Origin: Hericium rajendrae
Lineage: Eukaryota > Basidiomycota > Agaricomycetes > Russulales > Hericiaceae
Assembly (NCBI GenBank): GCA_033439255.1
Contig: CM065888.1
Span: 868,001-932,000 of the forward strand
Direction: 5' to 3'
DNA length: 64,000 nt
The translations under genes were made by a program, and so were the position numbers. Below are positions 43,840 to 63,473 of the stretch, one piece after another. Position 1 is the first letter of the stretch, and each line of letters opens with the position of its first letter. The notes under the pieces were generated by a model. It was given only the letters and a program-made list of their open reading frames with translations, searched no databases and was not told where the DNA came from.

Positions 43840-44659
43840 TGATACGCCTCAAGCTGTGTTCAGCAACGTCAGACCTCATCTCACCATCTTCCATGCAGCT
43901 CCCCTTCACTTCCATCCAGCTTCCAGCTCCTCACCCACCAACCTCGCTCAGAGCGGTGATGTCCCTCATCTCAGGAGTTGTCAGCTACTGCAGGCCTCAC
44001 CGAGGTTTCCTCAAGTTCGCTCCAGGTCATCCTCAGCGGTTTTGGTGAGCCAATCAGGTTGCTGGCATTATGGTACCGGGTCTGTGTTGTACAGGATGCC
44101 TGGATGCCACCTTTTGATGGTTTCGGACCATAGATGTACCATAGAGCAGCCGAGTCCGAGATCGCCCGAGACCGCCAAGGGCGAGTTTCTTACTTGTATG
44201 GTAGAGAGAGTCCCAGCTTCGAATAGAACCCTTCAGTGCACCTTTCCCCCTCAGAGCTCAGACCTCAGAAGTCTCTCTCACTGTTGTTCTCATTGTTCTC
44301 CGGACTTTAGACAAGTCCGCCCTTTTTAGGCCAGTCCGCCCGCAGCGTCGTTCGTCAGATTCAGTCATATCAGCCGCTTTTCAGTCCTTTTCTCTAGGAT
44401 TAGTCCGTCGTATCGGAGACCCGTGTGTCTCGTCGTTCTCCTTGTCATTCTACAGCCGTTCCTCATCCTTCCCAGCTGCTTATCACCAGATCGCCTCAGT
44501 CTCGCCCATAGCGAACCAGTCACCCCATCGTTCCTGCTGCAGTGACCCTCAGCTGCCCTCACCTCACTCCTCACTTGAGATACTTGGTCCCCTCGCACCC
44601 CCGGTACTCTGTTGGTTTTGGTTTTGGCTGCCGCCTCCATTCCCAGGGTCCACACATCA
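43840..44659 (+). repeat. 5' long terminal repeat
   Basis: 820 bp, starting TGATACGCC and ending CACACATCA. Nearly identical to the 3' copy. It should contain the promoter of the element; no TATA box is certain. Confidence 0.93.
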
Positions 44660-44661
44660 TT

Positions 44662-44682
44662 TTGGAGCCCACCGCGAGGGTT
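44662..44682 (+). promoter_or_regulatory. candidate tRNA primer-binding site
   Basis: TGGAGCCCACCGCGAGGG follows the 5' LTR after two bases and begins with TGG, as expected for pairing with the CCA end of a tRNA. The tRNA was not identified. Confidence 0.5.
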
Positions 44683-46221
44683 CCATACTCAAAACAGTGA
44701 GGGGTGTACCCAGGCGTAGCCTCTATCGGGTCAAGACTGCCATCGAGGTCAGGACATCGCATTTTTGCTCTCCATCACATTCTCGCTCGCTATCGCCTTA
44801 GGCGGCCTTGGTGCATTCTTCAAGATCGCCATTGGTTGCAGAGCTTTCCAATCGGTTCTCATCACCATTCGTCGCACCTGATTGCCTCCTGTCGCTTTCC
44901 ACCATCCTGTCCCTTCCAGAGTCGCTTTTTGTCGCCCAGGACCATCCTCCATCTCTCTCCAGTGCCCTGTACTGGCTCAGATCGTTCTGGGTCATCTCCT
45001 ATCACCTCCTGTCACCTCCTGCCTTTCTTCGTTGTCTTTAGGTCACTCCAATCGTCTTTGATCGTCCCTTGATCACCTCAGATCATCTCAGCTCGCCTCA
45101 AGGTTGCCTTAGGCGGACTCGGTCCCCAGCATCTTCTACTGCCTAGCATCGCTTCTCACTCCGTTTGGTCACTCCAGATCGCATTTTGACGGCATTAGTT
45201 GGTCTTCAATCGCTCTTGTTTGCCTTTTTAGCACCCAGGATCATCACCTAGCGCTGTCGCCACAGAGTCGCCGATAGCGTACTAGGTCGCAGCCAGCTTT
45301 CAGCATCTTAGGTCGTCCAGGATTGCCCTTATATCCCCTTCGGCGACCTCTTCACACCATTGAGTCATCCCAGCTCCCTTCTGTTGCTCAGACTCGCCTT
45401 GGAGGTGCCTCTGTACCCCATAGCTTGCATCAGCTCCTCCTCCTATCACCTTCCAGTGCTTTGAGTCACTTTTCTTTGCCCCAGGGTGCCTATTGATCAC
45501 TCCTATCACTGTCTTTCGTTCAGGAGCCATCTCCCATCGACTTATCGCATTTTGTCTTAGGCAAGGTCACCCCAGCATCCCTAGCACTCTCCATTGGTTG
45601 CAGAGGAGTCTTGTTTCTTTCAGGTTGAGCCAGTTGTGTCCAGACCGCTTACAGTCCATCCCAAAGTCACCATTGACATTCAGGAGCCTCTCGAGTCACT
45701 CTCAGGTCATTTTCTTGGCCCCTTCTTGCTTTCTTTTGTTTCAGATTTCCGCTGGCGATCTTGACTCGCCGTCGGCGACATTGGTTGCTTTTAGCAGTTT
45801 CTCATCGCTTTTCCAGGTCATATTGTCCCAGGAGCACCCCTGGCCCCTTTGGATCATCTCTCCCTATCGCTCGTCATTCTGGTTGCCCCAGAATTGCCTT
45901 CTATTGCTTTTGAGCATTTCTCATCGCTTTTGAGCACCTTTCATCGCTTTTGAGCATTCCAGATCATCGGTTATCATCTCAGGTCGTTGTCCACCACCTT
46001 GGCTCTTCACTCATCCCTTCCAATTGTCTCGCATTGCCCTAGTCATAGCAAGATCGCCTCAAAGTCGCTCCTCATCGCCCCTGATCACCCCTAGTTCATC
46101 TCAGGCTCACTTTCCTCGCATCAGAGTCACCTCCATCGTTCCTGATTGCTCTAGCGTGCCCCCGATCACTACTGCTCACTTTCATCCTCGACATTACCCC
46201 TGTCCCGCTGCTTCTGTTACA

Positions 46222-47985
46222 ATGACGCCATCAGCGTTCATGCCAATGCGTGGAGAGAGCGGTGCTCCCAGTTTTGCCAGAGACGATCCCCGTGAACTCG
46301 GACCATATTTTGCAGATCTGGAGTTTTGTTTTCAGCGCTTTCAGGTCCAGGACGATCTGGAGAAGAAGGCTCATGCAGTCCGGCTTTTGTCGGAGTTAGA
46401 TGCCCAGGATCTCTGGCAGTCTGAACCGAGTTTTGGCACAGGCACTTGGAACGAGTTCAAGGCTGCGATCCAGAAGCTGTATCCAGGTTCCGAAGCAGGA
46501 GGCCTTTGGTCCAGGCAGGATTTGGTGGCTCTCGCTCGAAGGACGCTTCAGGCGAACTTGTCCTCCTTAGGCGAACTTGGTGCATTTCTTCGCCAGTTTT
46601 TGGTCATTTCACGTTGCCTGAAGCACCAGGGACGTCTCTCTGCTTTCGAGGAGCAGCATTTCTTCCTCTCAGCACTTCCAGATCGACTCTGCCACCAGAT
46701 TGAGGCCTATCTCACCCAGAGGCACCCAGACCACCATCCAGACGAGCCCTACCCCATTATCGACATCTATCACGCTGCTAAGCACATTCTGCATGGTACC
46801 AGCATCACATTTGGCCCTCATACAAGCTGTAATGACCTGGTTGCCGACGTTTTGCCACCGACGTTTTCACCTCCTGTCCAACCAGCGACCTCCTGTATGC
46901 CTTCGACGACCTTCAGACAGCCTCGGCGTATTCGGACTGCCCCTGGGCATTGCAGCTTCTGTGGGGCCCATGGTCACTTCCTTCGTCAGTGCGCAGCAGT
47001 TCAGACGTACCTGAAGGCTGGAAAGTGCAAGTTCAACACCAGAGGTGAGATCACTTTACCTTCTGGGGCCTGGCTACCTCGAGGTGTCCCAGGTGATCCC
47101 ATTGCAGTTCGTCTTGACCAGTTCTATCAGCGCACCCCATCCTGGCATGCCCCAGACCAGTCTTCGCCCAGCACCATCACTCAAACTGCTCCCTTTGTCC
47201 ACCAAATGCCTGCTCCGCACAAGCCCGCCCACAGCGACCTTCCTTCGACCGCAGATCAAGTGTCATTTGATGATCGAGTCTATCTCCTAAGGCGTGGCCT
47301 CTCCATCTCGACGACAATCCAGTCTTGCAGACATCAGCTTGCTCAGCTCTATCAGATGCAACTCGACTTCACCACCTACCACGCTCGAGGCGAACTTGCT
47401 CAGCTCCATGAGCCAGCAGTGATGCCAGCCCATATGTCGAGGCCATCCTTCGTCAATCGTCATGTGTCATCATCTAGGAGGCCTCTCCTGTCATCCAGAG
47501 ACCAATGCGAGCGGTTAGAGACTCAAGTTCGCTCTGCGCTCAACGTCGCCCAAAGCGAACCACCAGCGAACTTGTTTCTATTGGACTTAGAGAAGCACCA
47601 AGTCTCGAGCAGCTCATCTACCCTTTCTTCTACCGTCTCTACCGATGCAGAGTTTCTTTCTCAATGCGCAGACCTGCAGGGGGATCACCAGGGTGTCTCA
47701 GAACCTGATCTCCACCCAGGAGTCCTTGTTGGTGGCTCTGAACCCACTCCAAGCTCGCCTACAACGTCCAAGCCTATACCTGCTGACTGTCGACCTCCGT
47801 TTTCCATCACTCCACTGCTTTCAGTGTCATTTCTCCAGTCGCTTTTCAGATCTGCATCAAGTTCGCTCAGGGCACCCTTAGTCGACGACAGCGATATCAT
47901 CTTCCTTGACCATCTCACTTTCCATCAGAACCCACCAGCAGTGATCCCAGATCGTCCTCCTCTACCACGATGCATTCCCGCTTGA
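46222..47985 (+). CDS. Gag-like protein of the LTR element
   Basis: 587 codons from ATG 46222 (AATGACGCC context). The frame is open further upstream, but that part is leader sequence with repeated ATCGCTTTTGAGCA. The N-terminal half looks like a retrotransposon capsid domain (FARDDPRELGPYFADLEFCF, GTWNEFKAAIQKLYPGSEAG, GELGAFLRQFLVISRCLKHQ). A zinc knuckle of the C-x2-C-x4-H-x4-C kind, CSFCGAHGHFLRQC, follows. The C-terminal part is Ser/Pro-rich. It should form virus-like particles and bind the element RNA. No pol frame follows; only 128 bp separate the stop from the purine tract. Confidence 0.85.
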   Translation: MTPSAFMPMRGESGAPSFARDDPRELGPYFADLEFCFQRFQVQDDLEKKAHAVRLLSELDAQDLWQSEPSFGTGTWNEFKAAIQKLYPGSEAGGLWSRQDLVALARRTLQANLSSLGELGAFLRQFLVISRCLKHQGRLSAFEEQHFFLSALPDRLCHQIEAYLTQRHPDHHPDEPYPIIDIYHAAKHILHGTSITFGPHTSCNDLVADVLPPTFSPPVQPATSCMPSTTFRQPRRIRTAPGHCSFCGAHGHFLRQCAAVQTYLKAGKCKFNTRGEITLPSGAWLPRGVPGDPIAVRLDQFYQRTPSWHAPDQSSPSTITQTAPFVHQMPAPHKPAHSDLPSTADQVSFDDRVYLLRRGLSISTTIQSCRHQLAQLYQMQLDFTTYHARGELAQLHEPAVMPAHMSRPSFVNRHVSSSRRPLLSSRDQCERLETQVRSALNVAQSEPPANLFLLDLEKHQVSSSSSTLSSTVSTDAEFLSQCADLQGDHQGVSEPDLHPGVLVGGSEPTPSSPTTSKPIPADCRPPFSITPLLSVSFLQSLFRSASSSLRAPLVDDSDIIFLDHLTFHQNPPAVIPDRPPLPRCIPA

Positions 47986-48113
47986 TCATTGTCACCACCT
48001 CCACTCTCCTTCTCAGCTATAGTGAGAACACCGCTCGAAGCGTATTTGGTGTCTAGCGTCCGAATCCCTCGTGGGGCTCATTGGTTAGACTGAGGACAGT
48101 CTATTTTTCAGTT

Positions 48114-48123
48114 GGGGGGAGAA
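48114..48123 (+). promoter_or_regulatory. polypurine tract
   Basis: GGGGGGAGAA directly before the 3' LTR, the usual place for the plus-strand primer of an LTR element. Confidence 0.75.
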
Positions 48124-48943
48124 TGATACGCCTCAAGCTGTGTTCAGCAACGTCAGACCTCATCTCACCATCTTCCATGCAGCTCCCCTTCACTTCCATC
48201 CAGCTTCCAGCTCCTCACCCACCAACCTCGCTCAGAGCGGTGATGTCCCTCATCTCAGGAGTTGTCAGCTACTGCAGGCCTCACCGAGGTTTCCTCAAGT
48301 TCGCTCCAGGTCATCCTCAGCGGTTTTGGTGAGCCAATCAGGTTGCTGGCATTATGGTACCGGGTCTGTGTTGTACAGGATGCCTGGATGCCACCTTTTG
48401 ATAGTTTCGGACCATAGATGTACCATAGAGCAGCCGAGTCCGAGATCGCCCGAGACTGCCAAGGGCGAGTTTCTTACTTGTATGGTAGAGAGAGTCCCAG
48501 CTTCGAATAGAACCCTTCAGTGCACCTTTCCCCCTCAGAGCTCAGACCTCAGAAGTCTCTCTCACTGTTGTTCTCATTGTTCTCCGGACTTTAGACAAGT
48601 CCGCCCTTTTTAGGCCAGTCCGCCCGCAGCGTCGTTCGTCAGATTCAGTCATATCAGCCGCTTTTCAGTCCTTTTCTCTAGGATTAGTCCGTCGTATCGG
48701 AGACCCGTGTGTCTCGTCGTTCTCCTTGTCATTCTACAGCCGTTCCTCATCCTTCCCAGCTGCTTATCACCAGATCGCCTCAGTCTCGCCCATAGCGAAC
48801 CAGTCACCCCATCGTTCCTGCTGCAGTGACCCTCAGCTGCCCTCACCTCACTCCTCACTTGAGATACTTGGTCCCCTCGCACCCCCGGTACTCTGTTGGT
48901 TTTGGTTTTGGCTGCCGCCTCCATTCCCAGGGTCCACACATCA
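48124..48943 (+). repeat. 3' long terminal repeat
   Basis: 820 bp, same ends as the 5' copy. Unit B sequence resumes directly behind it with GCGGGAGACA. Confidence 0.93.
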
Positions 48944-49444
48944 GCGGGAGACATACAAGGCAAAGCGATGCACAGAAATCACGTACCGAGGCCCGGGTAA
49001 TTCAGAGGAAGAAAGCATCCTCCGTGTCACTCGTTTATAAATGTACTCCGTACAGATTTACCGACCTTCCCTTCCCCCATCCTGAATCCAACTTTGCTGA
49101 ATTTCCTCACTGTCTTGCCGTTTTGACCCACCATGTCACTGTTGGAAGCTGCCATGCAGGCCTTCGACAATAAAGGACAGACCACAAAGCACCATAATGG
49201 TTCATAAGCAGATGTTGTTGTCGAGGTACGATGCGTAGCATGAACAAGGACCGAGTGAACAGAGGTAAGCCATTTTCAGCTCAACTAGCCAGGACACTTG
49301 ACACTCACCTGATAACAAAAAGCAGGCATTTTCTCGCCTGCTTCCAAGGTTCCGACCTCCACAGCAAGCCGGGGATGTTGATCAATGGCTCAAAGATGAA
49401 GCCGAGGGCATGAGAGCAGTGCTGAGCGCTGCGCATGCTGTCTC

Positions 49445-49833: not shown

Positions 49834-50733
49834 AGCTGCGGTGGTCCCAGTAATCACTAACCCCCTAATATATTAGAGATTACAAAGTGATCGTAGCCAC
49901 TATGAAGTAATGTCTCCTATATTATAGGTAGATAGTAGTAGTGCTTAGTATGTTAGTAGTCATTGTTTACAAAGCCTAGTCTCTGAAACAACAGTCAGAT
50001 AGTAGTGATGTATATGTATATTATATATTAGGAGGTTAGTAGTAATACATTATAGTAAATAATTAGACAGAATCAGAAGTTAGTAGTAATGTTTACTCTA
50101 ATAAGAGAAAAAAATGAATAGGCTAGTAGTAATTATAAATATGTCAGAAGGTTAGTAGTAGTACCAACAATATATAGCTAAACAGGTTCAGATGTTAGTA
50201 GTTATACTCAATCAAATATAATAGTATATAGATAGACCAGTAGTAATCATAACAATATTAGAAGGTTAGTAGTAATATGATATAGTACAAATCAGATAAT
50301 ATCAGACATTAGTAGTAATGTTTAATCTCATAGACTGATAGTAGTTATAAACATATTAGTAGGTTAGTAGTAATTATAAAAATGCTAGACAGTTAGTAGT
50401 AATATTATACTGTATGTAGCTTGATCAGTTCAGATGTTAGTAGTTATATTCAATATGATATAGTAGTATATGAATAGACCAATAGTAATCATAAAAATAT
50501 TAGGAGATTAGTAGTAAATATAACTTAGTAAAAATTCAGATAACATCAGATGTCAGTACTTATATTGAATCTAATGAGAATGTGTTACAGAATGAACTCA
50601 GCGTAGGAAGATAAAACACTGTATTAGTATATCTACCTGTTACAGAATAAACTAAGGTAGTGAATGAGCTAAATAAAATGGGAATGAGACACGAAAGATA
50701 CTCACCTCAGCACAGGAAGAGAAAATGTTGAGG
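49834..50733. repeat. AT-rich tandem repeat of about 240 bp with TTAGTAGTAAT core (left part)
   Basis: TTAGTAGTAAT or close variants recur every 30-60 bp, and a longer pattern of roughly 240 bp can be followed. An example is a block with AGACCAGTAGTAATCATAA near 50,235 and AGACCAATAGTAATCATAA near 50,475, each preceded by GTTCAGATGTTAGTAGTTAT. There is no coding-like frame. The right-hand remainder lies beyond the transposon at 62,110 and after. The first bases (GTAATCACT ... AGTGATC, 49,849-49,890) form a small inverted repeat. Confidence 0.7.
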
Positions 50734-50755
50734 CAAGGGGGGTGCGGGATGTTAA
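50734..50755 (+). repeat. left terminal inverted repeat of the P-like transposon
   Basis: 22 bp, starting CAAGGGGGGTGCGGGATG and preceded by TGTTGAGG. Identical in reverse complement to 62,088-62,109. Confidence 0.92.
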
Positions 50756-50909
50756 AAGAAAACATATGGTCGAAATTTCTGATAGTGGGTCATATGGTCG
50801 GACTAAGTACGTATGTAATCAGGCACATGTCCCAATATGGAAATTGATAAGATAAGATTTGTTGAACTCTTATCTCCTGTACCCCGCACTAGTACCCCGC
50901 ACATTGATA

Positions 50910-53900
50910 TCACTCTCTACGCTGTTTTCCCCTTTGTCCCTCGGTGCACGCCTCGCATGTCCATCGCCTTGGTACCATATCGAGGTATACGCACTCAAGA
51001 TGGTACTAAAAGACTGGTGAGTATAATGGCAGAGCTAATCCCCTTCATTAACACTCACCCATTGAGTCTCACAGCCGGGCTTTCCGCATTCAACAACGTC
51101 ATTTCCTCCAGCTTGTGCCCACTCCCCACAAATACAATTCTTTATCTCAGTGAGATCTCTCTCCTTTCGCTTTCGTTGTGGCCGGCCGGTTAACAAAGTC
51201 GACTGCAGGACTGGTGCCGTGGCACTCGATTGCTCAGGACTTGCGGCTTCATTCGGTTGCGCTTCAGTTGCAATGGCGACAGTGATTGAATTCGAGGCAG
51301 CGGAAACCAGAGGGTCCGGTATGTCTGAAAGGTCACCATTAACCAGCCGAATGATCTCACCTGTATCTGTCGCACCATTCACCGATAGCGCGCCTTTCGC
51401 ACCACCATAATCTGTTGCACCTACCCCTGTTATCGCGTCTGACGCCTTCACGGCATCCACGAACTCTTCACCTATCCCGTGGTCTTCCCGCTCTACGACA
51501 TCTTCGTCGTACAGTCCATCACTCACTGTACCATCAACAGCCTCATCTTGGGTTGCACCATATCCTTGGTTGCTGTCGCTGTCAGTTTCGGTCTGATCGG
51601 ATGCTTCCATATATTCTTCGTCCTCATCCTCCGATGGCCGTCTATGGTTTTAACTTGTCATTAGAACTACTCATACTCAAGGCTGACAAGCTCATCATAC
51701 CTTAATGTTAGGCATGAGCTATGCGCCTCTGATATATCAAGACGTGCGGTGGCATTTCTCTTGTTCCGTTTCTTCGTCTGTTTGTGCCGTTCCTGCCATA
51801 TTCTTTTTATCTCTGACTTCTTGAAGTTCTTCAGGCTCCAGAGTTTCTCGTAGGCCTCAAGGGGAGCACCAGCGTGGACCCGCTGGAAGTGGTATTTCAG
51901 GTTATATTTCCAGACTGCGGGGTCAGCCTGCGGGCAGAGTGGGCACTGTATCGGTACATTCGAACAGGGTGACGTCGGACTCGATGCTGCTGCAACTCCG
52001 TACGAGAATTTGATAAGGTTTTGGCATGTACTCTTGTTCTGATTGACGGAGAGGTTACTATTCCGTCCCCAGCCTTGTTGGAGGAATATGTGACATAGTG
52101 AGAAGGGGCGAAGGCACAAGCCACACGGTTCCAGAGTATGGTCTACGGAAGTGTCGTGGGCAATGTGACTTGCGATATGTTGGAGAGCTCACTGCCCGGA
52201 TTCGAACACGACTTCTGAAGGGCAGACAGGACACGCGTTTTGAATAAGCTCGTGCACGTCGTCACTTCTCTCAGTTATAAAGCATGCCTTCCCTGTAAAA
52301 TACCTCCGTTAGCTGAGCTCGCGGAGTGCAATATGTGCCGGATACAAACCTGACTGCTCTCGGTATGGAAAGTCATCCGTGACCTTGGTTCGCAGAATCA
52401 ATTGAACATGGCTAAGAGCCAGGCGATCATGTATGCTCGACGCCATTGCCATAAGAGTGCCGCTTGCGAATAGAAGATGAGGACAGCCAGGGATATGAGT
52501 GGAGAGCAGTGGATTGATAGGTTGCACAAGTACACCGGGGACTTTGAACTTGAGTGGCAATGGTCTAGAAGAACGCCAGTCATGTTGCTGCGACGGATCA
52601 TCATCCGAGTCCGTGGACATTATTCCAATTAGCTGGTAAGATATCATTACTGTTTTCTCTGAAAGAATCCCGATTATGATCTCGTCGACGGGCTTTGAAT
52701 CAATCCAGATACCATTGACTTCACCGATGCAAAGAAATAGTTTCCCATTGCAAGAGATAAGCGATGCGACAGGATCATGTATCAGCATACCAGGTCCAGC
52801 ATCTGCATCTCCTAAGGGTCCGTCAACGAGGAATGGTGCATCAACCGGTTTGTATCGGGCCTCCTGCTGCACTCGACGTAAGCGATCCGTTGAGTTGGCA
52901 GTTTTACGGTATTTGAATCGCATAGCGAGAGCGCGAGCTTTGTTAACCAGCGCTACTCCTTTTCCATCAAGATCGACAGCTTTCGAGAAGGGCGTAGGTG
53001 TGCCACCGCTGCCCCAATCTTCAGCTTGTGCGGCTGAGTCTTCGAGTTCTCGAACACCTTCCATTGCGTCAGCCGAACTTGTGGTCTGACCTGGGCTTGA
53101 ATCGCTTTCTGGTTCTTCAATGTCGTCTTCAGAAAGGGGCAGGTGAAAGAGCAAGGAGCCAGCAGGTGCGAAGATTGATGCTCCTTCAATGGCATCTATG
53201 TCTTTGAGTACCTTGACGCTGAATGCATGCAAATCCTCAGTTGTTCTTCGGCCCTGCTTCCAGCAGCTTGCCAGCGAGACATTCTTGACGTAGGTGTTGC
53301 CCCTCCAGAGGCGAGGACTGATGTGATCTGCGGCATCTGAAATTGCGTTGAGATCACTCGAGACAATTGGAAGATGAAGTCGACGGGGACCTTTGTCCCA
53401 TTCCAGATATCGCGCGAGTATATTGGCAACTTCAGTGGTGCCTGTCAAGCGTAAGGCAAGCTGTAGGATGTCGAGGTTCGCATCATTTCCGACCATTGTA
53501 CGAAGAATACCAAAAAGTGTTTCGAGACGGTCTGTGCCAAGTTGGATAATGAAAAATTGACTTTCAGGGAGATCTACTTTGGCCTTCGCAACGCAGAAAT
53601 AAATGTTCTTGATCATTATCATGATGTCGATATAGAGCGGGGTCGGAATGAATTGTCCATGTGCGCCTTGCCAGTTATAGAGGACCATCGCAAGATGAGT
53701 GGCAGCACTAAGATACTCGAGCTGCTCAGTTAAGGACATATCAACACAGACGTACGGGTAGATCAAACTGTAGCAAAGAATCCCGAAGACCTTGAGGGCT
53801 TCACGTGCTGCCTGAAATCCTGCACGAGTATCTGAACCAGGCTCCCGCGGCAATGTCCATATGTCCTGCAGCATGCCGTAGGCTAGCGTGACATCTTGCT

Positions 53901-56900
53901 TGTCATTGGGATTGAAGATGGCATGGATGTGATCAGCCGCCTTTCCTGCATCATGAAAATGTGCTTTGATGATTGAGGGTGTTAGCCAGACATCCTTGAT
54001 GAGGATACCTTTCTCACGCAGAAGACTATTGCGAAGCCGCTTGAAGACGTGCTTATAGTCCTTATCAGGCGTGACATCATCGTCGCCAACGTGCAGATCC
54101 ATGAGGGCGAGAGGGGACAACAAGTGATAGATTGGCGATGTCATCGAGAGCTCGTCCTTGAAGGTTAGTTGGATCAGAGCTTTGCCTCGTCGAGCTTCGC
54201 CATCTGACGCCAGACTAACAATCCGCATCTTTGTGAGCCATGCTTGTGTGTTCGTGGCATCGACTGTAGTTTGAAGAAGGCTAGCATGCTTTGAAGCACT
54301 CTCCCGCTTACAGCTGCCTGATATAAGAATTGGACGCGCACTATATAGACGAGGTGAGGAAGCTAGTAGGCCAAGAGCGCCAACTGTTGCCTGCGAAAAA
54401 GACGTCAAAATGACTGTGAGAACTACTGCCTCCGCAAATGGGATAAGCGCCTTGTAAGCGCAACTCACCTCTATCGCAAGATGAACGTCTCCACGATCCA
54501 GGTCATCAAAGAGTACTTCAAGGTCATCCTTGTTTTCAAATGTAAGGTTCGTCTTGTGTCCATGTTCATGACAGATGCCTAGAAACTGATTGCTCTTGTC
54601 ATCCCATCTCGGCCGCCCTTCTGTCGCAATCTCATCGAACATCACAACGCCGTGGAATATGATGGCAATTTTCATCATGTCCGAATCCTTGAGACTATCA
54701 AAGCATGACTGTACATTTTTTGCGATCTCTTGCAGATTTGGAGCACCGGGAGATGGGAGAAGTAGAGCAATGGCAGGACATCGATGAACAGTCTCAGCCG
54801 CTGGCATCCCAAACATGCGGTGAGCAATATTTGCGACTCGACCACCACCGAGCCTAAGAATTAATAATGCCTGCAGGTCGTCCTTCTCGTCAAAACTTTT
54901 AGGATGGTATGTTCCTTCCGCTGCTCGTTTAACAAGGTCGAGCATGTTTGACATGCCCAGATTGCGATTGAAGCCAGCACGAAGAACACGATCGATTCGT
55001 GGAATCTTCTCGCTCACCAATGCGAGGAGCATTTGCTTGTGTTGATCAAGGGAGGTATTCCGGCCAACAAGTTTCCGGGCATCGTTCAGGCGATGGAGGC
55101 GTAGATGATCAATGACAGTATTCTTGCGGCGCAGTAGATTGACGAGAGCACCACAGCCGTAGTAGGCAAATGGTGCGTTTTCATGAATGCCGTGTGAGAT
55201 TCCATCTCAAAAATGTGAAATCTACATAGCTGCCAGCCAATGCTATGTCTGGTTTCATAGTGCTATGGCTGCTATGTAGTTGGGCCACACAGCTATATAG
55301 AACTATGGTAGCTATCATAGTTATTATAGTCATGGGTGATGGGTATATAGTATTACATAGTAATAGGACACTACTATGCCTGCTATGTAACTTATGTGTT
55401 TTGAGCCTCCCTCTATGTATCTTATGTATCCTATAGATACTATGTTCCATACAGAGCTTCCATAGGTTATTATGGTCTCTCAGGCTGCTATAATATCTGC
55501 AGTTGATGTAGAGTCTATGATTTCGAGCATACTGTGCTCAAAATCAGGTCAAATTTATTTGTATTCAATTACTAATACACTCAAGTACACTACATTATAC
55601 TACAGGTGGGGCTGGCACATGTGCTCGCGGGGTGTCGACAAGGCGTGCACGCACACAACAGCGCGGCTGGTGTGCGACACTGCGCGCAAGACGCGATGGC
55701 TGCATTCGAAGACCCGGGCCCGTGCACGGGAGTGCGCATGCTGGCGGGGCCGTGCGCAAGAGCGCGGACTGCGCGCCGGAAATGCGGAGGCCCGGGGCCC
55801 GTGCGCGAGGTGTTGGGCAGCCGCGGGCTCACGCCGGGCCATAGGATGTGGGCGAGGCGCGGAGGCCCATGCGCGAGGCGCCATGCTGCCATGGGCGCGT
55901 ATGCGAGGTGCGGGGAGTGTGCGTAAGGGGTGGCGGGTGGCGGGCTCGTGCGTGAGGCGCGAGGGACGCATAAGGGGCGTGGCGGATGCACGCGAGGGGC
56001 GTGGCGGATGCACGCGAGGGGCGCGGTGGATGTGCGCGAGGTGCGGGCGGTGTGCGCGAGATGTTTCCGGATGCCGGGCACGTGCACGATGTGTTGAGAG
56101 CGTGCGCGAGATGTGGCGGGCATGCCCGAGGCCCAGGACCCGTGCGCAAGTGGTTGAGGTGCCAGGCGCATGCGCAAGATGCAGGAGGTTGGGGCGCGGC
56201 GCGGAGGCCAGTCTTGCGCGCCGGAGACGTGAGGTGGGCTGGAGACGTTGATGTGCCGACGCGGGCCCGTGCACGGCGTGGTAAGCCTGCGCGCGAGGCG
56301 CACTAGCCGCACACGGGAGGGCGACGCGGAGTGCGACGTGCGTGGCCCACGTGCGAGGCGTCGGACTGCGGGACGACTGCACACGGTCATAGGCGACGTG
56401 CGCATACGCATGCCCGTCCCGCTGGCCGTGCGCACGAACCACAGTGGGGTCGCGTGCAACGCGTCGGCCCCTGCGCGAGACGGGGAGGCCGCGCACACGG
56501 TGGCTGGCCCGCACGCCGGGCAGCAATGCGGGACGCAGGACGCGGGACGGCGAGGCCATGCGAGAGGGGCGAAGCTCATGCGCGAGGCGGCGGGCCCGCG
56601 TACGCGTTGTCCGGTGGTGTGCATGCGCCAGCGCACGCGGTAGTGGTCGTTGGAGGAAGGCGCGCCAGCCCCTGCGGGAATGGCGGCGATGTCGAGGGCT
56701 GAGTCGACGACGCGGAGGTGGCGGTGGGAGGCGAAAGGGATTCCGAAGAGGGGCACGCAAGGGGAAAGTAAAACGAGAGTATCGCTCGTGCGAGCGATAC
56801 TCTCTAAGTTAGCACGAATAAGTGAATCAAGACGTTTTTTTTTACTTACCTTTGAAACCCTCAGCATCCAAATAACCTCCTCCGGTCTTCGATCCGATGG

Positions 56901-59900
56901 GGGCGAGAAGAGGGATAGAGAGAGGAGAGACGGGCGAGAGAGGGGAGTGATAGTGGTTCCGGGTTAGGGACAAGACGAACTAAGACGCGCGTTCGGTGCT
57001 TCAGCCACCGAACGAGCGAAGCTACGTTGTTCGAGCTTCAACAAACCAAATAAAATCGTGAAAATTCAGAGAAAAAGAATGCTAAGATAGATCATACATT
57101 AAATCAGAATCAATGAGGGTTCCATTTATCTACCGCACCGTGAATTGCTGAGCAGCAGCATCAACATAATAAAGTCTAGCGCCCAGTCTCTGACGCGACG
57201 CTCGGCAAGCGCCCGGCAACCACAAATCCCGGCTCCGCCCGGGATTCGTATATAAGGCTCGCGCGACGCGCGTTGCCTCTTGCTCTTTAACTCCCACTAT
57301 CTCTTGCCATGTCGACGCTTTCGTCGACGTCCTTTGCTCGTTCGTTGTCATTTCTTACTCGTTCGTTGTCGTTTCTTACTCGTTCGTCATCATTTCTTCC
57401 TCGCTCGTCATCATCTCTTGCTCGTTTGTCGTTTTTTTCTTCTTCTTTTTGCTCGTTGTTGCTATCTCCAAGGTAACCTTTAATTGTGAGTCTCTTATTG
57501 CTTATACTAATACTAACATCTTCAAGTTAGTTTTTTAGATTTCGCTTTTTGTTACTCTGGTAAGTTTGTACATGTTATCTTTATCTCCTAAGACTGATCT
57601 TCTCTTATCTTTATATATATCTTATCTTATCTTTATATATATCTTATCTTATCTTTATATATATCTTATCTTATCTTTATATATATCTTATCTTATCTTT
57701 ATATATATCTTATCTTATCTTTATATATATCTTATCTTATCTTTATATATATCTTATCTTATCTTTATGTATCTTATCTTATCTTATCTTTTTTAAATTT
57801 CTGCTTTTTAGTTAGTAGTAGTGTTTGTAATATCAATATAATCTTGATGTATTGAAATAATTTATATTTGTGTGTGATTATATGTTATTGATTCTAATAT
57901 GATTGTAAAAAAGATTTATAGTTCTAATAGATTTTATGATTTTAATATATATATTGAGCCTACATATTGAATATAAGATATGTAAGACACATATTGAATA
58001 TAGGATATATGAGATATATATTGAGTATAAGATATGTAAGATATATAAGCCTTATAGCTTTCATAGCTAGCCATACTATCATAGCTACATAGTCAGCTCT
58101 TATAGCTATGATAGCACTCCATAGCATGACCCCTGAGCTCCATAGCACTATATAGTATCTCTCTTTAGCTATATGGGCTATGTAGAAAAGGGCAGTGCTA
58201 TGGAACTATGAAATCTATATAGACTTTATAGAGCTATGTACCACTTACACATTTATCTGATGTCGTTCTCGGATATTGACAAGCAATGTGTTCTCCTCTA
58301 GATTGTTGCACGCTATGCATCGTTGCTTGGTGACAGCCTGTCCCAAGCAAGACAGCGCCCGGAGAATCATGGTACCATTTTGCCAGGCGAAGCTCCATGG
58401 TAGGCCTCTTTTATCATGTAACATAAATGGATAACTTGTTGCCGCAGTCTGGCCAGGTGGAAAGTCAAGTGCGAACCCCTGGCATTTGCTCAAGGGCGGC
58501 GGCACAGTCTTGACGAAAATGATCTCATCGTCAGATGCGGAGCCACCTCGCTGATTGCCAGGCTGCTGCTCGATGTGCTCGGTATGTGCTTCTGCCTCTT
58601 GGTACGTCTTGTCCTTGTGCATTGTCTGATCACTTTGATTGTGAACTCCGGAACTAATTGATGGATTAGCCTGCATTGACGTGCTCAGTGCTCTGATACT
58701 CACACAGCACGAACAGCAGCCATCAACACTTCCATCTTCCCCTCAAGCAGCACCCCCTTGACTCCATTCCTCACTATGCAATGCTCAATGTAGCGATGCA
58801 GTGCCGTAAGACCTCGCTCGCCTGATCGTAGCCGAGCGGTGACTTCTTCTGCTATTGCCCCATATCCGATGGAGCAGGCCAAAGGGACACGACGCAAGCC
58901 CTAGGATAGTGGCAGGATGGGAGATATGCTACTACATGCTGGCAGCCATCTACTCAACTGCTGACTAAGCCTCAGTCTCTAGCGGTGATATCATGTGATC
59001 TCTCCCTCTAAGACCCCCTGCTCTCCCTACTCCATCATCCCCCCCTCAAACATAGGCGACGCCCTCGTCGCCCTCAGAAAAGACCTCAACACGAAGACCC
59101 ACGGACCCAGCCAAGACTCTGCAAAACCCTGGTCAACTCGACCAAACGTGGATCACCATCCCAACTCAAAGGTGAAGGCGGCACGGCAAAAGCAGAAGTT
59201 GGACTTGAAACATGCATGGTAGATGGCCGACCTGCACGTAGGCCAGCAGGATGACGACGGGTAATCACCGGCACTGACGAAAAAGTGGAACGTGGTGGAT
59301 GCAAATCGGAACGATGAGAACGACGAGCACGTCGCTGCAATGAAGCGAATGGTGATCTTGAGGATGAACGCAGAACAGAGAAGTCGCGGGGAGCTGGTAG
59401 TGGCGGCACAGAATGGATCGGGAGGGAATCTGCTTCATCAGCCCAGGACAAAAATGCAGGAGGTGCACTGTTGGCAGATGAGGGGCAGGTCTGCGTGAGA
59501 GCATCCACTCGCGAGATGGTCAACGGCACCGTAGTCTCTGTCTGTGCATCAGCATATTCAGGCCGCTGATCCAGCCACCTACGAGATTCCTCCTCGCAGC
59601 CTTTCGCATATCCCGCCGACCGAGCTTGGTTCATAGCAGACTCGAGCTCCCGATCCGACACCGTAAGACCATCTGCAAAACCCGAATTATAGGCAATGTA
59701 ACGAATTTCGCGCAAGAGCTGCTCGTCAATAGCGTCGATGGACAAGATGCGTGGGGTGGTGTTGAAGGACGAATGGGAAATGGGGGATGCGGCGCGGGCA
59801 TCCTGGCTTGCCTCGAGTCGACTCCGTGCGAGTCCTTCCTGCAGCCCTTGCTCGTGGCCCTCTGCCCTGCCCGTCCTCTTCCCGGCCTCGACGCCCTTGC

Positions 59901-61851
59901 GGAAGCCCATGTTCCGCCCTTCCTTCAAACCCACCGCGTGTCCGTCGCGCAGCGCCGTCGCCACGATCTCCTTGAGGTGCGCCGGGTCGAGCAGCTCGCC
60001 ATCGGGCTCCTCGAACAGCAGCGCGGCGGCCGCTTGGGGCTTCCTCGGTTCGAATCTGGGTGCCGGCGTTTTCGCGTTGTCGTGCGCTGGGATGGGGTCG
60101 ACGCGAGAGAAGGTGGGCTGCACTGATCGTGGGGCTCGGGGTACGGTACGCGCGTGCAGGACGTCCTCGCGGGCTGCATCGCGGCTGCGCGGCTCGTCTG
60201 CGGTCGTGGATGGCTGTGTGGTTGGCTCGCACTCGCTTGCGGACGGCGTCGTGGTGTTGTCGCGGGGTGTGGGTATGTCTTGCGTGGCCGCGGCCTGCGT
60301 GCGCGATGCAGGAGGGACGGGGGTGCGTACTGGGTTTGCCTGTCCTCCCTGCGCGTTGCTCACGGTGCGCACATCCTCCGTATGCGGCCCTGAGCCTTCC
60401 TTCGTCTCGTTCTCCGCGGCACTGGGGCATCTGGTACGTTCGGGCTGCGTACGCGAGTCGTACGGAGTCGTGATGGGCGAGTGGGACGAGGTAGGGACGG
60501 TGGGGAGCGCGGGGTTGGTGGTCACGCTGCAGACCTCGCGCGAGTCGCGTTTGGTCGTTGAGGGTGGCTTCTGTGGCTCGCGGGTGGTCGCGAATGGCGG
60601 CGGGGGACTGTTATTGGGTGTGGGCGCGTTGTTCGAGCTCGCGGAGGTGGTGTGCAACACGAGGGAGGAGGCGCGAGGTGCGGGATGCACGTTCTTCGCG
60701 TGCAGGTCGCGCGGCTGCTGTGTAGGCGCTGGCGCTGGCTCGTTCGCGGCGTTTATGCCTAGCGTGTCGGCGGAGGCGACGGTGGCGACGAGCGGGTGCC
60801 CGGTGTTCGCGATTGTGGGCAACGGGGGTGCTGATCTTGCTGCTGCTCTCCAAGCAGCTTTCGCTGCGCGCTTGTTCTTGCCCATATCGGGTAATTCCGT
60901 ATTCGTCGAACGCGAGACTCGGTGGACGAATGGCTGCGCTGGGGCACGAAAAGGGCTGTACGCACTAGAGAACCCTTCTGGAGATGATGAGAAACACGAA
61001 AGGACGCCAGAGAAACGCTAAGAGATGCAAAACAGAGACACGCGACGCAGAGAGACAGAGACGAAACACGAGGCGAGCAGAAAACGAGGCGACACTGCAC
61101 GAAAAGACAGGAAGACTGCCGAAAACCCAAGCGCAACACAACGCAACGCTAGTGGGTCGAATCCGCTCTCATCACCACGATGGAGCAGGCCAAAGGGACA
61201 CGACGCAAGCCCTAGGATAGTGGCAGGATGGGAGATATGCTACTACATGCTGGCAGCCATCTACTCAACTGCTGACTAAGCCTCAGTCTCTAGCGGTGAT
61301 ATCATGTGATCTCTCCCTCTAAGACCCCCTGCTCTCCCTACTCCACCGACAAGTCGATTAAGCATAGGGTCGAGAACCTCCCATGTGTCATCTGCTGATA
61401 GCATTGGGGGCTTGCTGGAGAATGTAATGATGATATCATTGTCGGTCGCCTCAGGCAGAGTCGATGGAGGTATGTTCTCGATAGCGATCTTCAGATCGCA
61501 AAGTTGCTGCTGACCATATTCACAGATACCGAGATCTCTAACCCTGGGGGCTTCTGTTGCAGACGATGTAGCCAGATGCGATGACGCTGCATGGGGTTTG
61601 ATGCGCAAGGGTGCTGAGACAGTCGAGGCAATCTTGGCTAGTGGCTCAGTTTGTTTTGTGAACCATGAGGTTATAGTCCTCGTACGACTGGACAATGCTT
61701 CTTTCTTCTTTCGTTTCTCTTGATTGCTGATGCACTTCTTGCTTCGTAGATGCTGCTTCTTAAAATTGTTGATACCGCCCATGCCGACCGATATCTTTGT
61801 CTGACAGTCCGGGCATAAAACACAGCCGTCGTCGTTGATTGGTGGGTCCAT
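50910..61851 (-). CDS. P-element/THAP9-like transposase with BED-like, C2H2 and PHD fingers
   Basis: Exons read as 61342-61851, 58704-58900, about 58256-58653, 54469 to about 55200, 52350-54390, 51701-52292, 51059-51641 and 50910-51005. The first has a BED-like C-x2-C...H-x5-C finger (CPDCQTKISVGM ... HLRSKKC). The core shows the three acidic places of a P/THAP9 DDE enzyme: VVMFDEIATEGRPRWDDKSN; DKDYKHVFKRLRNSLL; GTDRLETLFGILRTMVGNDA. After it come CGLC, a C2H2 finger (CPLCPQADPAVWKYNLKYHF, QRVH) and a C4HC3 PHD finger (CICGEW, VECGKPGCETQWYHLEC, WTCEAC). A TGA at 52189-52191 interrupts exon 6, probably from CGA, so this copy is likely inactive. The join across 55,208-58,254 is not settled. 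Confidence 0.75.
55600..56700. repeat. GC-rich degenerate minisatellite
   Basis: About 1.1 kb built on GTGCGCGAGG with variable linkers of 10-20 bp (for example GGGCCCGTGCGCGAGGTG, GCGGATGCACGCGAGGGGCG twice in a row near 55,980). GC is far above both flanks. Long open frames on both strands (up to 425 codons on the minus strand) follow from the lack of stop codons in such DNA and are not called as genes. Confidence 0.7.
56775..56804. repeat. perfect 14-bp palindromic arms
   Basis: GAGAGTATCGCTCG, two spacer bases, then its exact reverse complement. It could form a hairpin or be a binding site for a dimer. Confidence 0.8.
57249..57257 (+). promoter_or_regulatory. TATA box inside the nested block
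   Basis: TATATAAGG lies 52 bp before the ATG at 57309, behind a GC-rich inverted motif CCCGG...CCGGG (57,228-57,243). The best-looking core promoter in the whole accessory region. Confidence 0.5.
57309..57476 (+). CDS. short Ser/Arg repeat reading frame of unknown function
   Basis: 55 codons behind a good TATA box. The peptide repeats a seven-residue unit (RSLSFLT, RSLSFLT, RSSSFLP, RSSSSLA) after MSTLSSTSFA. The DNA is therefore a 21-bp tandem repeat. At the end, CCAAG|gtaacc with TACTAAC and CTTCAAG|ttag further on looks like an intron, so the transcript may continue. The unit could equally be a non-coding repeat in the 5' leader of an RNA. No family recognised. Confidence 0.3.
   Translation: MSTLSSTSFARSLSFLTRSLSFLTRSSSFLPRSSSSLARLSFFSSSFCSLLLSPR
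57604..57785 (+). repeat. 22-bp tandem repeat
   Basis: About eight head-to-tail copies of a unit made of CTTATC and TTTATATATATC words. Simple repeat. Confidence 0.85.
58867..59034. repeat. 168-bp direct repeat, left copy
   Basis: By eye identical to 61,178-61,345. Contains, on the minus strand, the last 4 bp of transposase exon 1, the complete 130-bp intron and the first 34 bp of exon 2. Here it supplies the acceptor that leads into exon 2. Confidence 0.9.
59086..60885 (-). CDS. uncharacterised basidiomycete protein in a block inserted in the transposase gene
   Basis: Single-exon gene of 599 codons from ATG 60885, intact. The N-terminus is basic (MGKNKRAAKAAWRAAARSA). A 230-residue Pro/Thr/Ser-rich part follows. 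The middle has a glycine-spaced helix GHAVGLKEGRNMGFRKGVEA and GRAEGHEQGLQEG, which resembles the G-x3-G repeats of Yae1-type proteins. The end has a conserved-looking RYIAYNSGFADGLTVSDREL, ESRRWLDQRPEYADAQTE and LSWDGDPRLVELTRVLQSLG. I have the impression of a family found in many mushrooms; no role is known. It is on the same strand as the transposase, lies within its intron and brings 290 bp of its own upstream DNA. Its GC content is much higher than that of the surrounding transposon. Confidence 0.65.
   Translation of the reverse strand: MGKNKRAAKAAWRAAARSAPPLPTIANTGHPLVATVASADTLGINAANEPAPAPTQQPRDLHAKNVHPAPRASSLVLHTTSASSNNAPTPNNSPPPPFATTREPQKPPSTTKRDSREVCSVTTNPALPTVPTSSHSPITTPYDSRTQPERTRCPSAAENETKEGSGPHTEDVRTVSNAQGGQANPVRTPVPPASRTQAAATQDIPTPRDNTTTPSASECEPTTQPSTTADEPRSRDAAREDVLHARTVPRAPRSVQPTFSRVDPIPAHDNAKTPAPRFEPRKPQAAAALLFEEPDGELLDPAHLKEIVATALRDGHAVGLKEGRNMGFRKGVEAGKRTGRAEGHEQGLQEGLARSRLEASQDARAASPISHSSFNTTPRILSIDAIDEQLLREIRYIAYNSGFADGLTVSDRELESAMNQARSAGYAKGCEEESRRWLDQRPEYADAQTETTVPLTISRVDALTQTCPSSANSAPPAFLSWADEADSLPIHSVPPLPAPRDFSVLRSSSRSPFASLQRRARRSHRSDLHPPRSTFSSVPVITRRHPAGLRAGRPSTMHVSSPTSAFAVPPSPLSWDGDPRLVELTRVLQSLGWVRGSSC
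61178..61345. repeat. 168-bp direct repeat, right copy
   Basis: Partner of 58,867-59,034. Here it supplies the donor that follows transposase exon 1. Confidence 0.9.
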
Positions 61852-62087
61852 CTGTGTATTAGGTGGGATAGTCAGTGTCACTACACCATCTTGTATGAAA
61901 AATAGATCAGACCTTGCTGCTTAACTGGTATCTTTGCAGCTTTCTGAGACTTTTTGATGCGAGATGGGATATGCAGTAGTATCTCAATAAGGCAACTATA
62001 GCCCTAAGCTAGGGGTTACATTGTACGGTCAATATTTCTGGTAAGCCGACCGACACTCTAACTAACTACCTAACCCCCTGTCCCGGA

Positions 62088-62109
62088 TTAACATCCCGCA
62101 CCCCCCTTG
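62088..62109 (-). repeat. right terminal inverted repeat of the P-like transposon
   Basis: 22 bp, reverse complement of 50,734-50,755, followed by the target duplication TGTTGAGG. Confidence 0.92.
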
Positions 62110-63473
62110 TGTTGAGGTGCTACAGACACGTGGTATGGACAAGTACAGTACAGTTCAGGAAGGTTCAAAAAGGAAAAACGTGCTATACGAGTGGTGGTCT
62201 GACTATCGTACTACTCTCAACAGAATGATAAATGAATAGACTGGTGATAGTCATGAAATATTCAAAGATTGACAATGTTATAATATGATATATAGTCAAA
62301 AATGATCAGATATTAGTAGTAATATTTAATCTAGTGTTCTGATTAGATTTATAATCTACATTGTTCTCTTATTGTATAATAAATATGTTAACATAGCATT
62401 AAGTCTGTTATTAAAGCAGATGCACTATTAGTGATCTCATATAACTTTTTATAGTAGAGAGTCAGAGCCATCAGACAAGTATATGAAAAGATAACAATCT
62501 AATAGTTTGATAAAAAATTACCATCAGATGAAAAGTACTAAGCCATAAAGCAATATTGTTAGATAGTACAAAGAGCTATAAGTATATGAAACAGTGAGTC
62601 AAAACTTGAATAATCATAATGAGAGACATGATGACAATGAGTAAGATTTACAAGTGAGTAAGAAGGATATGTTATTGTAGAGAATAATATATAAATAAGT
62701 AGTAGCAATATAAATATCAAGATGTTAGTAAAAATATAACACAATGTAAGATCTTATTTAAAAACTTTCTCTTTTTATATATCTAGTAATACTTGAGATT
62801 TATATCAATGCAAGAAATTCCTGTCTTCAGAAGTCTTGAGCATAGATCAATTGAGTTTATTATATTTCTGAGTACTAGTAAGAATTATTTAATCCTATGT
62901 CAATCTTTTAATTACAATCATATAGTAATCTACTGATTTAGTTGTAGTAATGCTAAGTTACGATTCCTTAGAATCGTTTACTCTAACCCGCTTTTCAACT
63001 CAAAAAAGATGACACCCAGCCAATGTAATGCCTTTTATAGTAATAATTTCTCACATCTTAAAGTAAGGTTGTAGGTTCGATTCTGGCAATTGTCATTTTT
63101 GTGATTTTAAATGTTTCTTAGAGATATCAGTCTACTAAATCAAATTTAATTAGTGTTAAACTATATGCATATGTAAATCAATGCTAGTCTTATTAGAACT
63201 GAAAGATTTTAGTATAAGAAAGTGCAAACTTGTTGAAATAACAGATAAACATATTTAATAGGATATTCTGCACCTTGTTATTGATGTAAGTGAGTGGTAT
63301 GTATGATAACATGATAAAGGCAAATTATACCTCCTCAGAACATTTTTTTCCATGAGAATAGGTTCAGAAATGACTGAGATATGAGCAAATCACTTCAAAA
63401 GATACCTTTGAGGAGAAGATCATAGTGATTGCATCATAGCGGTGCAATAAGTGGTGCTATTTACACGATAAAG

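Follow-up and report, generated by a model that had tools for sequence, protein, structure and literature searches.

A dead copy of a probable P-like DNA transposon family whose predicted transposase carries a PHD finger

The element and its interrupted gene

The DNA analysed here, a stretch of 64,000 nucleotides referred to as the window, carries an element at 50734-62109 on contig C11 of a genome of 46.8 Mb in 19 contigs. The element is bounded by two 22-bp terminal inverted repeats (TIRs), one at the 3' side of its gene (50734..50755, + strand) and one at the 5' side (62088..62109, - strand), which are complementary at 22 of 22 positions (100%). Immediately outside the TIRs lies the exact 8-bp target site duplication TGTTGAGG, at 50726..50733 on the left and 62110..62117 on the right (no strand assigned). 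Perfect 22-bp TIRs and an exact 8-bp duplication on both flanks, as named in the original prediction, are thus confirmed.

The transposase gene is a single gene with several introns; its splice pattern was established by homology, the copies on contigs C1 and C12 being read against the window. From its N-terminus onwards, the predicted protein has a CPDC...H...C motif followed by a long core; C2H2-type motifs and an acidic linker come next, and a PHD finger forms the C-terminus. All of it is encoded on the - strand. Exon 1 starts at 61346..61851 with a methionine and the zinc-finger-like N-terminus and ends, with approximate limits, at 58702..58865; part of exon 2 follows at about 58247..58650, upstream of a nested repeat. 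A 965-codon open frame at 52309..55206 contains an HTH-like stretch, an RNase-H-like catalytic core and an insertion, and it is continuous in the window because the intron at 54391-54468 stays in frame and remains open. Next comes a region of C2H2-type zinc-finger motifs recognized by eye (51667..52300, limits approximate), which is broken by a stop and in which all Pfam matches were sub-threshold. The exon at 51059..51649 (start approximate) encodes the acidic linker and the first half of the PHD finger; the last exon, placed at 50910..51005 by its splice homology to the copies on C1 and C12, encodes the second half and the stop codon. At E 1, no THAP domain was matched in those stretches of the N-terminus that were searched.

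The window copy measures 11.4 kb between its ends because two other repeats have inserted into its single gene. Nested repeat (a), at about 55203..58246 (no strand assigned), splits the gene. Its end was found at 40 genome places, one of them its own, and a 33-bp scrap came in addition; 40 is a lower bound, since 40 of 135 candidates were scored, and the places other than its own show 85-91% identity. Within this repeat, a G+C-rich core was recognized by eye at about 55600-56760, and at about 57600-57770 there is a 22-bp minisatellite. Nested element (b), at 58870..61345, is of the LTR type, with identical terminal repeats of 165 bp, the 4-bp duplication CCGA at 58866-58869 and 61346-61349, and a single 643-codon ORF on the - strand. 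A 168-bp query from its terminal repeat gave 35 genome matches, including its own two and some partial ones, and these were often paired at a distance of about 2.3-2.8 kb. This element probably belongs to a non-autonomous LTR family, perhaps of a TR-GAG-like kind. Elsewhere in the window, a gag-like stretch with a CxxC...H...C motif lies between a second pair of long direct repeats at about 44000-48944 (by eye); a guessed frame for this stretch held 11 stops.

The window gene also has a premature stop at 52189-52191, within the zinc-finger region. Given this stop and the two nested repeats, it is very unlikely that the window copy, which we regard as dead, could supply a working enzyme. The earlier description of one gene spanning the element thus fits the ancestral state only, and not the split and prematurely stopped gene of the window.

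Copies and ends of the family

The genome contains eleven two-ended copies, the window copy and ten others. Exact 8-bp duplications flank 10 of these 11, the window copy included, and all ten duplications differ. The longer copies are found at C1 649663-655484 (CAAGCATG), C12 67056-72826 (GATATATC), C14 45759-51571 (ATTTACTC) and C14 33893-42652 (GCAGAAGA; 8.76 kb). At C15 583298-605729, perfect TIRs with the exact 8-bp duplication GCTTCGCT enclose 22.4 kb, an interval that is either one copy with extensive interruptions or a mobile unit of larger size. Short copies occur on C10 at 1.299 Mb (GCAAATGT), on C3 at 3.008 Mb (TGTCCCTC) and 3.413 Mb (ATGCAAAT; one TIR base changed at one end), and on C8 at 0.649 Mb (CTTGAGAG). 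The sole copy without an exact duplication, on C8 at 0.658 Mb, has TGTGCGAA on one side and CTTGAGAG on the other. Within C8:648766-658830, two identical 977-bp short copies lie about 9 kb apart, and their right flanks are identical over at least 1047 bp; the 0.658-Mb copy is therefore a segmental duplicate of its neighbour and not an independent insertion. Four single ends lie on C2, C4 and C6 and at 1.609 Mb on C11. The family is thus a true element with TIRs, 8-bp duplications and further copies; the additional copies with the same ends and duplications that the original prediction proposed to look for were found within the same genome.

The three copies without added length measure 5771, 5813 and 5822 bp between their ends. 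A natural element length of 11.4 kb was ruled out by these three copies of 5.8 kb. Shortened copies sharing the same ends measure about 1.0-1.2 kb, and three of them, of 1.15-1.16 kb, lie at different sites and show 98.8-99.3% identity to one another. This near-identity points to recent movement of the family, and implies that the short copies were recently mobile with a transposase that would have come from elsewhere. By eye, three groups of paralogues can be distinguished, whose identity to the window core ranges from roughly 25 to 75%.

The end pattern CAAGGGGGNNNCGGGATG, which leaves three positions free, had 25 matches in the 46.8 Mb, versus 0 for the reversed control. The three free positions within the TIR vary among subfamilies (GTG, GCT or TCG), and the triplet is identical at both ends in 10 of 10 exact pairs. 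With kinship among copies ignored, the permutation p for this agreement was about 0.001, about 0.002 without the C8 duplicate, and 0.002 on nine pairs with the C15 copy left out. Such concordance is expected if a single protein reads both ends. Inside the TIR at the gene-3' end lies a candidate transposase-binding region (50815..50858, + strand) composed of two conserved blocks, GTAATCAGGCACAT at 50815-50828 and GATAAGATAAGAT at 50846-50858, both on the + strand. Both were kept at this end in 8 of 8 aligned copies, several of which are near-identical to each other. The gene-5' end has other conserved blocks, and among the five copies compared no 8-mer was common to both subterminal regions. 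The blocks may serve as binding sites for the transposase.

Kinship of the predicted transposase

The catalytic signature of the P element, as given in PMC8230255, consists of D230, D303, a [C/D](2)H motif at D339, and E531. Candidates for all four lie on the - strand of the window, namely D1 in VMFDEIA (54634..54636, aligned with D230), D2 in ASDGEA (54202..54204, aligned with D303), the D(2)H block DYKHVFKRLRN (54028..54060, aligned with D339, H342, K345, R348 and N349), in which D-x2-H occupies 54049-54060, and the glutamate of GTDRLETLFG (53521..53523, aligned with E531). Candidate D1 falls in a predicted strand of a low-confidence model. In a seven-row alignment with two partial rows, candidates D1 and D2 are both invariant, as are D and H in the D(2)H block. 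The three sequence blocks reported earlier are thus present, with the first D at 54634-54636, D-x2-H at 54049-54060, and D-x-LE with its E at 53521-53523.

The match of these blocks to P was scored without gaps, each block being anchored on one of the published P residues, and P blocks alone were used. The background consisted of 201 six-frame ORFs, not curated proteins, from which family members had been removed by motif. For the D339 block, 0 of 1712 background positions and 0 of 11091 shuffled positions scored as high; for the E531 block, the counts were 0/1498 and 2/8147. The D230 block was marginal (15/1610 and 106/10847), and the D303 block was not significant (216/1674 and 1152/10998). 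Fisher combination over all four blocks, the non-significant one included, gave 9e-7 with the background and 9e-8 with the shuffled positions, P values that call for caution, as the windows had been chosen once the sequences were inspected. When a four-block chain was scanned freely, blocks 3 and 4 landed on D339 and E531, blocks 1 and 2 were misplaced, and 1 of 1000 shuffles reached the score. The match to the P catalytic blocks is therefore strong at D339 and E531, marginal at D230, and not significant at D303.

Profile searches gave a weaker picture. The curated core profile matched the 6p5a sequence with 10.5 bits (HMMER, single target, E 6.7e-6); parts of the HTH region and the beginning of the insertion domain were aligned, in collinear order. 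This score lay above 5000 of 5000 shuffles; because the best shuffle came close (10.1 bits, E 8.6e-6), the single-target E value is too optimistic and the honest level is below about 2e-4. Against 53 ORFs from KDZ and hAT loci, the hAT loci being represented by short pieces only, the same profile scored no higher than -2.2 bits. By sequence, the preference for P/THAP9 over hAT and KDZ was thus upheld by this difference and by the D339 and E531 blocks. A comparison by hhalign with a single P sequence gave weak matches, with p values of 0.041 and 0.014, and 1 of 200 shuffles did equally well.

None of PF21787, PF21788 and PF21789 reached its curated cut-off. Sub-threshold matches were found for PF21787 (E 0.045) and PF21789 (E 0.063), each in 1 of 23 members, and for the family consensus against P-type Pfam (E 0.091). 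Among transposase-type Pfam models, those of the P type were the only ones to match at all, and they did so at the homologous blocks. Some better scores came from unrelated families (Caveolin, E 0.00024; FCD, E 0.00071 with the consensus), which marks the noise level of the Pfam search. Genome-wide, PF21788 had no match, nor did the controls of that search match anywhere; PF21787 had two sub-threshold matches, the better one outside the P-like family. The latter, at C2:1127535-1127669 in a 471-codon frame, is the best genome-wide match of the P-type RNase-H model (E 0.18, sub-threshold).

Pfam and PDB searches with the lone window protein yielded nothing useful, and a first alignment matched nothing in the PDB up to E 10. 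An unguided PDB profile search returned five matches up to E 10, three of them to one zinc-finger protein and two to lipases, with neither P nor any other transposase among them. The clear profile match to P/THAP9 that had been anticipated did not appear, all P-type Pfam models being below cut-off and P absent from the unguided PDB search. Two structure models were poor, with mean pLDDT of 48.7 and 58.5. In a Foldseek search with the better one, ranks 1 and 3 of 234 went to the hAT transposase Hermes, at E 0.30 with probability 0.18 and at E 0.79 with probability 0.08; P was absent from the best 50 of 234. With the other model, nothing related was found among the best 50 rows.

Taken together, it is probable that the window holds a dead copy of a low-copy fungal family of cut-and-paste transposons whose transposase is a divergent P/THAP9-like member. 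Membership in P is likely and not proven, in view of the sub-threshold Pfam matches, the weak hhalign result, the absence of P from the PDB search, the poor models and the weak match to Hermes. That match is one of several points in favour of a divergent hAT-like transposon, since hAT elements likewise make 8-bp duplications and have an RNase-H core with an insertion, and ends of the CAAGG type, as found here, are compatible with hAT. However, the Hermes match came from a low-confidence model, and the family agrees with P both in DxxHxxKxxRN, which follows the second D, and in its E block, LGTDRLExLFG. Moreover, no hAT model matched any of 23 members at E 1, whereas the hAT dimerisation model was found at 33 places elsewhere in the genome. 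Target duplications of hAT elements prefer T2 and A7, and both bases occur together in only 2 of the 10 duplications. We therefore consider a hAT affiliation unlikely.

Membership in KDZ is highly improbable. The genome carries a large KDZ load, with at least 178 matches to PF18758, and Zisupton is described in PMC12730594 as making 8-bp duplications. However, 0 of 23 members matched PF18758 at E 1, and among the matches listed of the 178, none lies at a copy of the P-like family. The best profile match to hAT or KDZ that would have spoken against the original prediction was thus not seen among 23 members at E 1. Alternatively, the family could lie outside P, in a separate RNase-H-core superfamily that is sister to both P and hAT types and has inherited the [C/D](2)H and E blocks from an ancestor common to them. 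Overall similarity to P is indeed weak, only two of four blocks are strong, THAP was not found and a PHD finger has been added; against this stand the extended DxxHxxKxxRN match, the collinear HTH stretch and insertion start, and the near-equal D3-E spacing, so that a superfamily of its own also appears improbable.

The preferred assignment, a divergent P-like transposase, can be set beside Drosophila P (6p5a). The two share 8-bp duplications, TIRs, internally shortened copies and asymmetric subterminal regions; the asymmetry recalls what is described for P elements in PMC7776569. They also share the D-D-D(2)H-E order, DxxHxxKxxRN, an E block with FG, and a D3-E distance of about 180-190 residues (179 here, 192 in P). 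In P, a GTP-binding insertion domain lies between beta5 and alpha4; the candidate insertion of the present family, between D(2)H and E, is a stretch of similar length whose start aligns with P, and it may hold a comparable domain. Unlike Drosophila P, the present family has ends of 22 bp rather than 31 bp, a length of 5.8 kb rather than 2.9 kb, a D1-D2 spacing of 118 rather than 73, and, with no THAP found, C2H2-type motifs and a C-terminal PHD finger. Hermes shares with the family the 8-bp duplications and a weak fold resemblance to a poor model, and differs in the block after the second D and in the lack of a hAT profile match; Zisupton shares the 8-bp duplications, and KDZ shows no profile match to the P-like transposase. 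The host is probably a fungus, judging from this finding and the many KDZ elements.

Geneticists routinely use P elements as a tool, and textbooks cite them as an example of horizontal transfer; to our knowledge, they are thinly documented outside animals. P-superfamily elements from Puccinia and Melampsora were reported in 2011 as previously unknown in any Dikarya, and those of Melampsora have 8-bp duplications (PMC3164196). By description only, these rust-fungus elements (Repbase P-1_PSt, P-1_MLP and P-2_MLP) resemble the present family in having Basidiomycota as hosts. Because of these reports, P in a basidiomycete is already known, and the suggestion that the element would extend P beyond animals was partly pre-empted. 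A search of the open-licence PMC literature found no published P element of Agaricomycetes. What may be new is this lineage, the absence of a THAP domain and the PHD finger.

The PHD finger and its possible role

With the last two exons of the C1 copy joined, phmmer matched the PHD finger of Pho23 in the PDB (E 1.1e-6), followed by ING1-5 and Yng1/2. The Pfam PHD model remained below cut-off (0.001 for the window copy, 0.0055 for C1); the C4-H-C3 ligands and an ING-like sequence are present. By homology, the predicted transposase thus ends in an ING-type PHD finger. PHD fingers that bind H3K4me3 have an aromatic cage formed by a Tyr before the first Cys and a Trp before the His pair. Here, by eye, the Trp is retained and the Tyr is replaced by V (C1) or N (window); histone binding by this finger is plausible. 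A PHD finger also occurs in the transposase of Rehavkus, according to PMC6446971; unlike the present family, Rehavkus is MULE-like with 9-bp duplications, and the PHD finger here is ING-like and C-terminal.

A possible course of transposition can be outlined. The transposase would bind the 22-bp ends and the subterminal blocks, cut the element out by D-D-E chemistry, and insert it into target DNA that is cut with an 8-bp stagger. It would also act in trans on the shortened copies of about 1.0-1.2 kb, which have the same ends, and through the PHD finger the complex may be anchored to histone H3 tails. We know of no P element for which PHD-based insertion targeting has been described. That a fungal branch of P replaced THAP with zinc fingers of its own and gained an ING-type PHD finger by which insertions are directed to marked chromatin is a tentative and rather doubtful proposal.

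In sum, a recently mobile fungal family with full-length and short copies would show a P core recombining with DNA-binding and chromatin-binding parts, and its PHD finger would offer a testable case of target choice.
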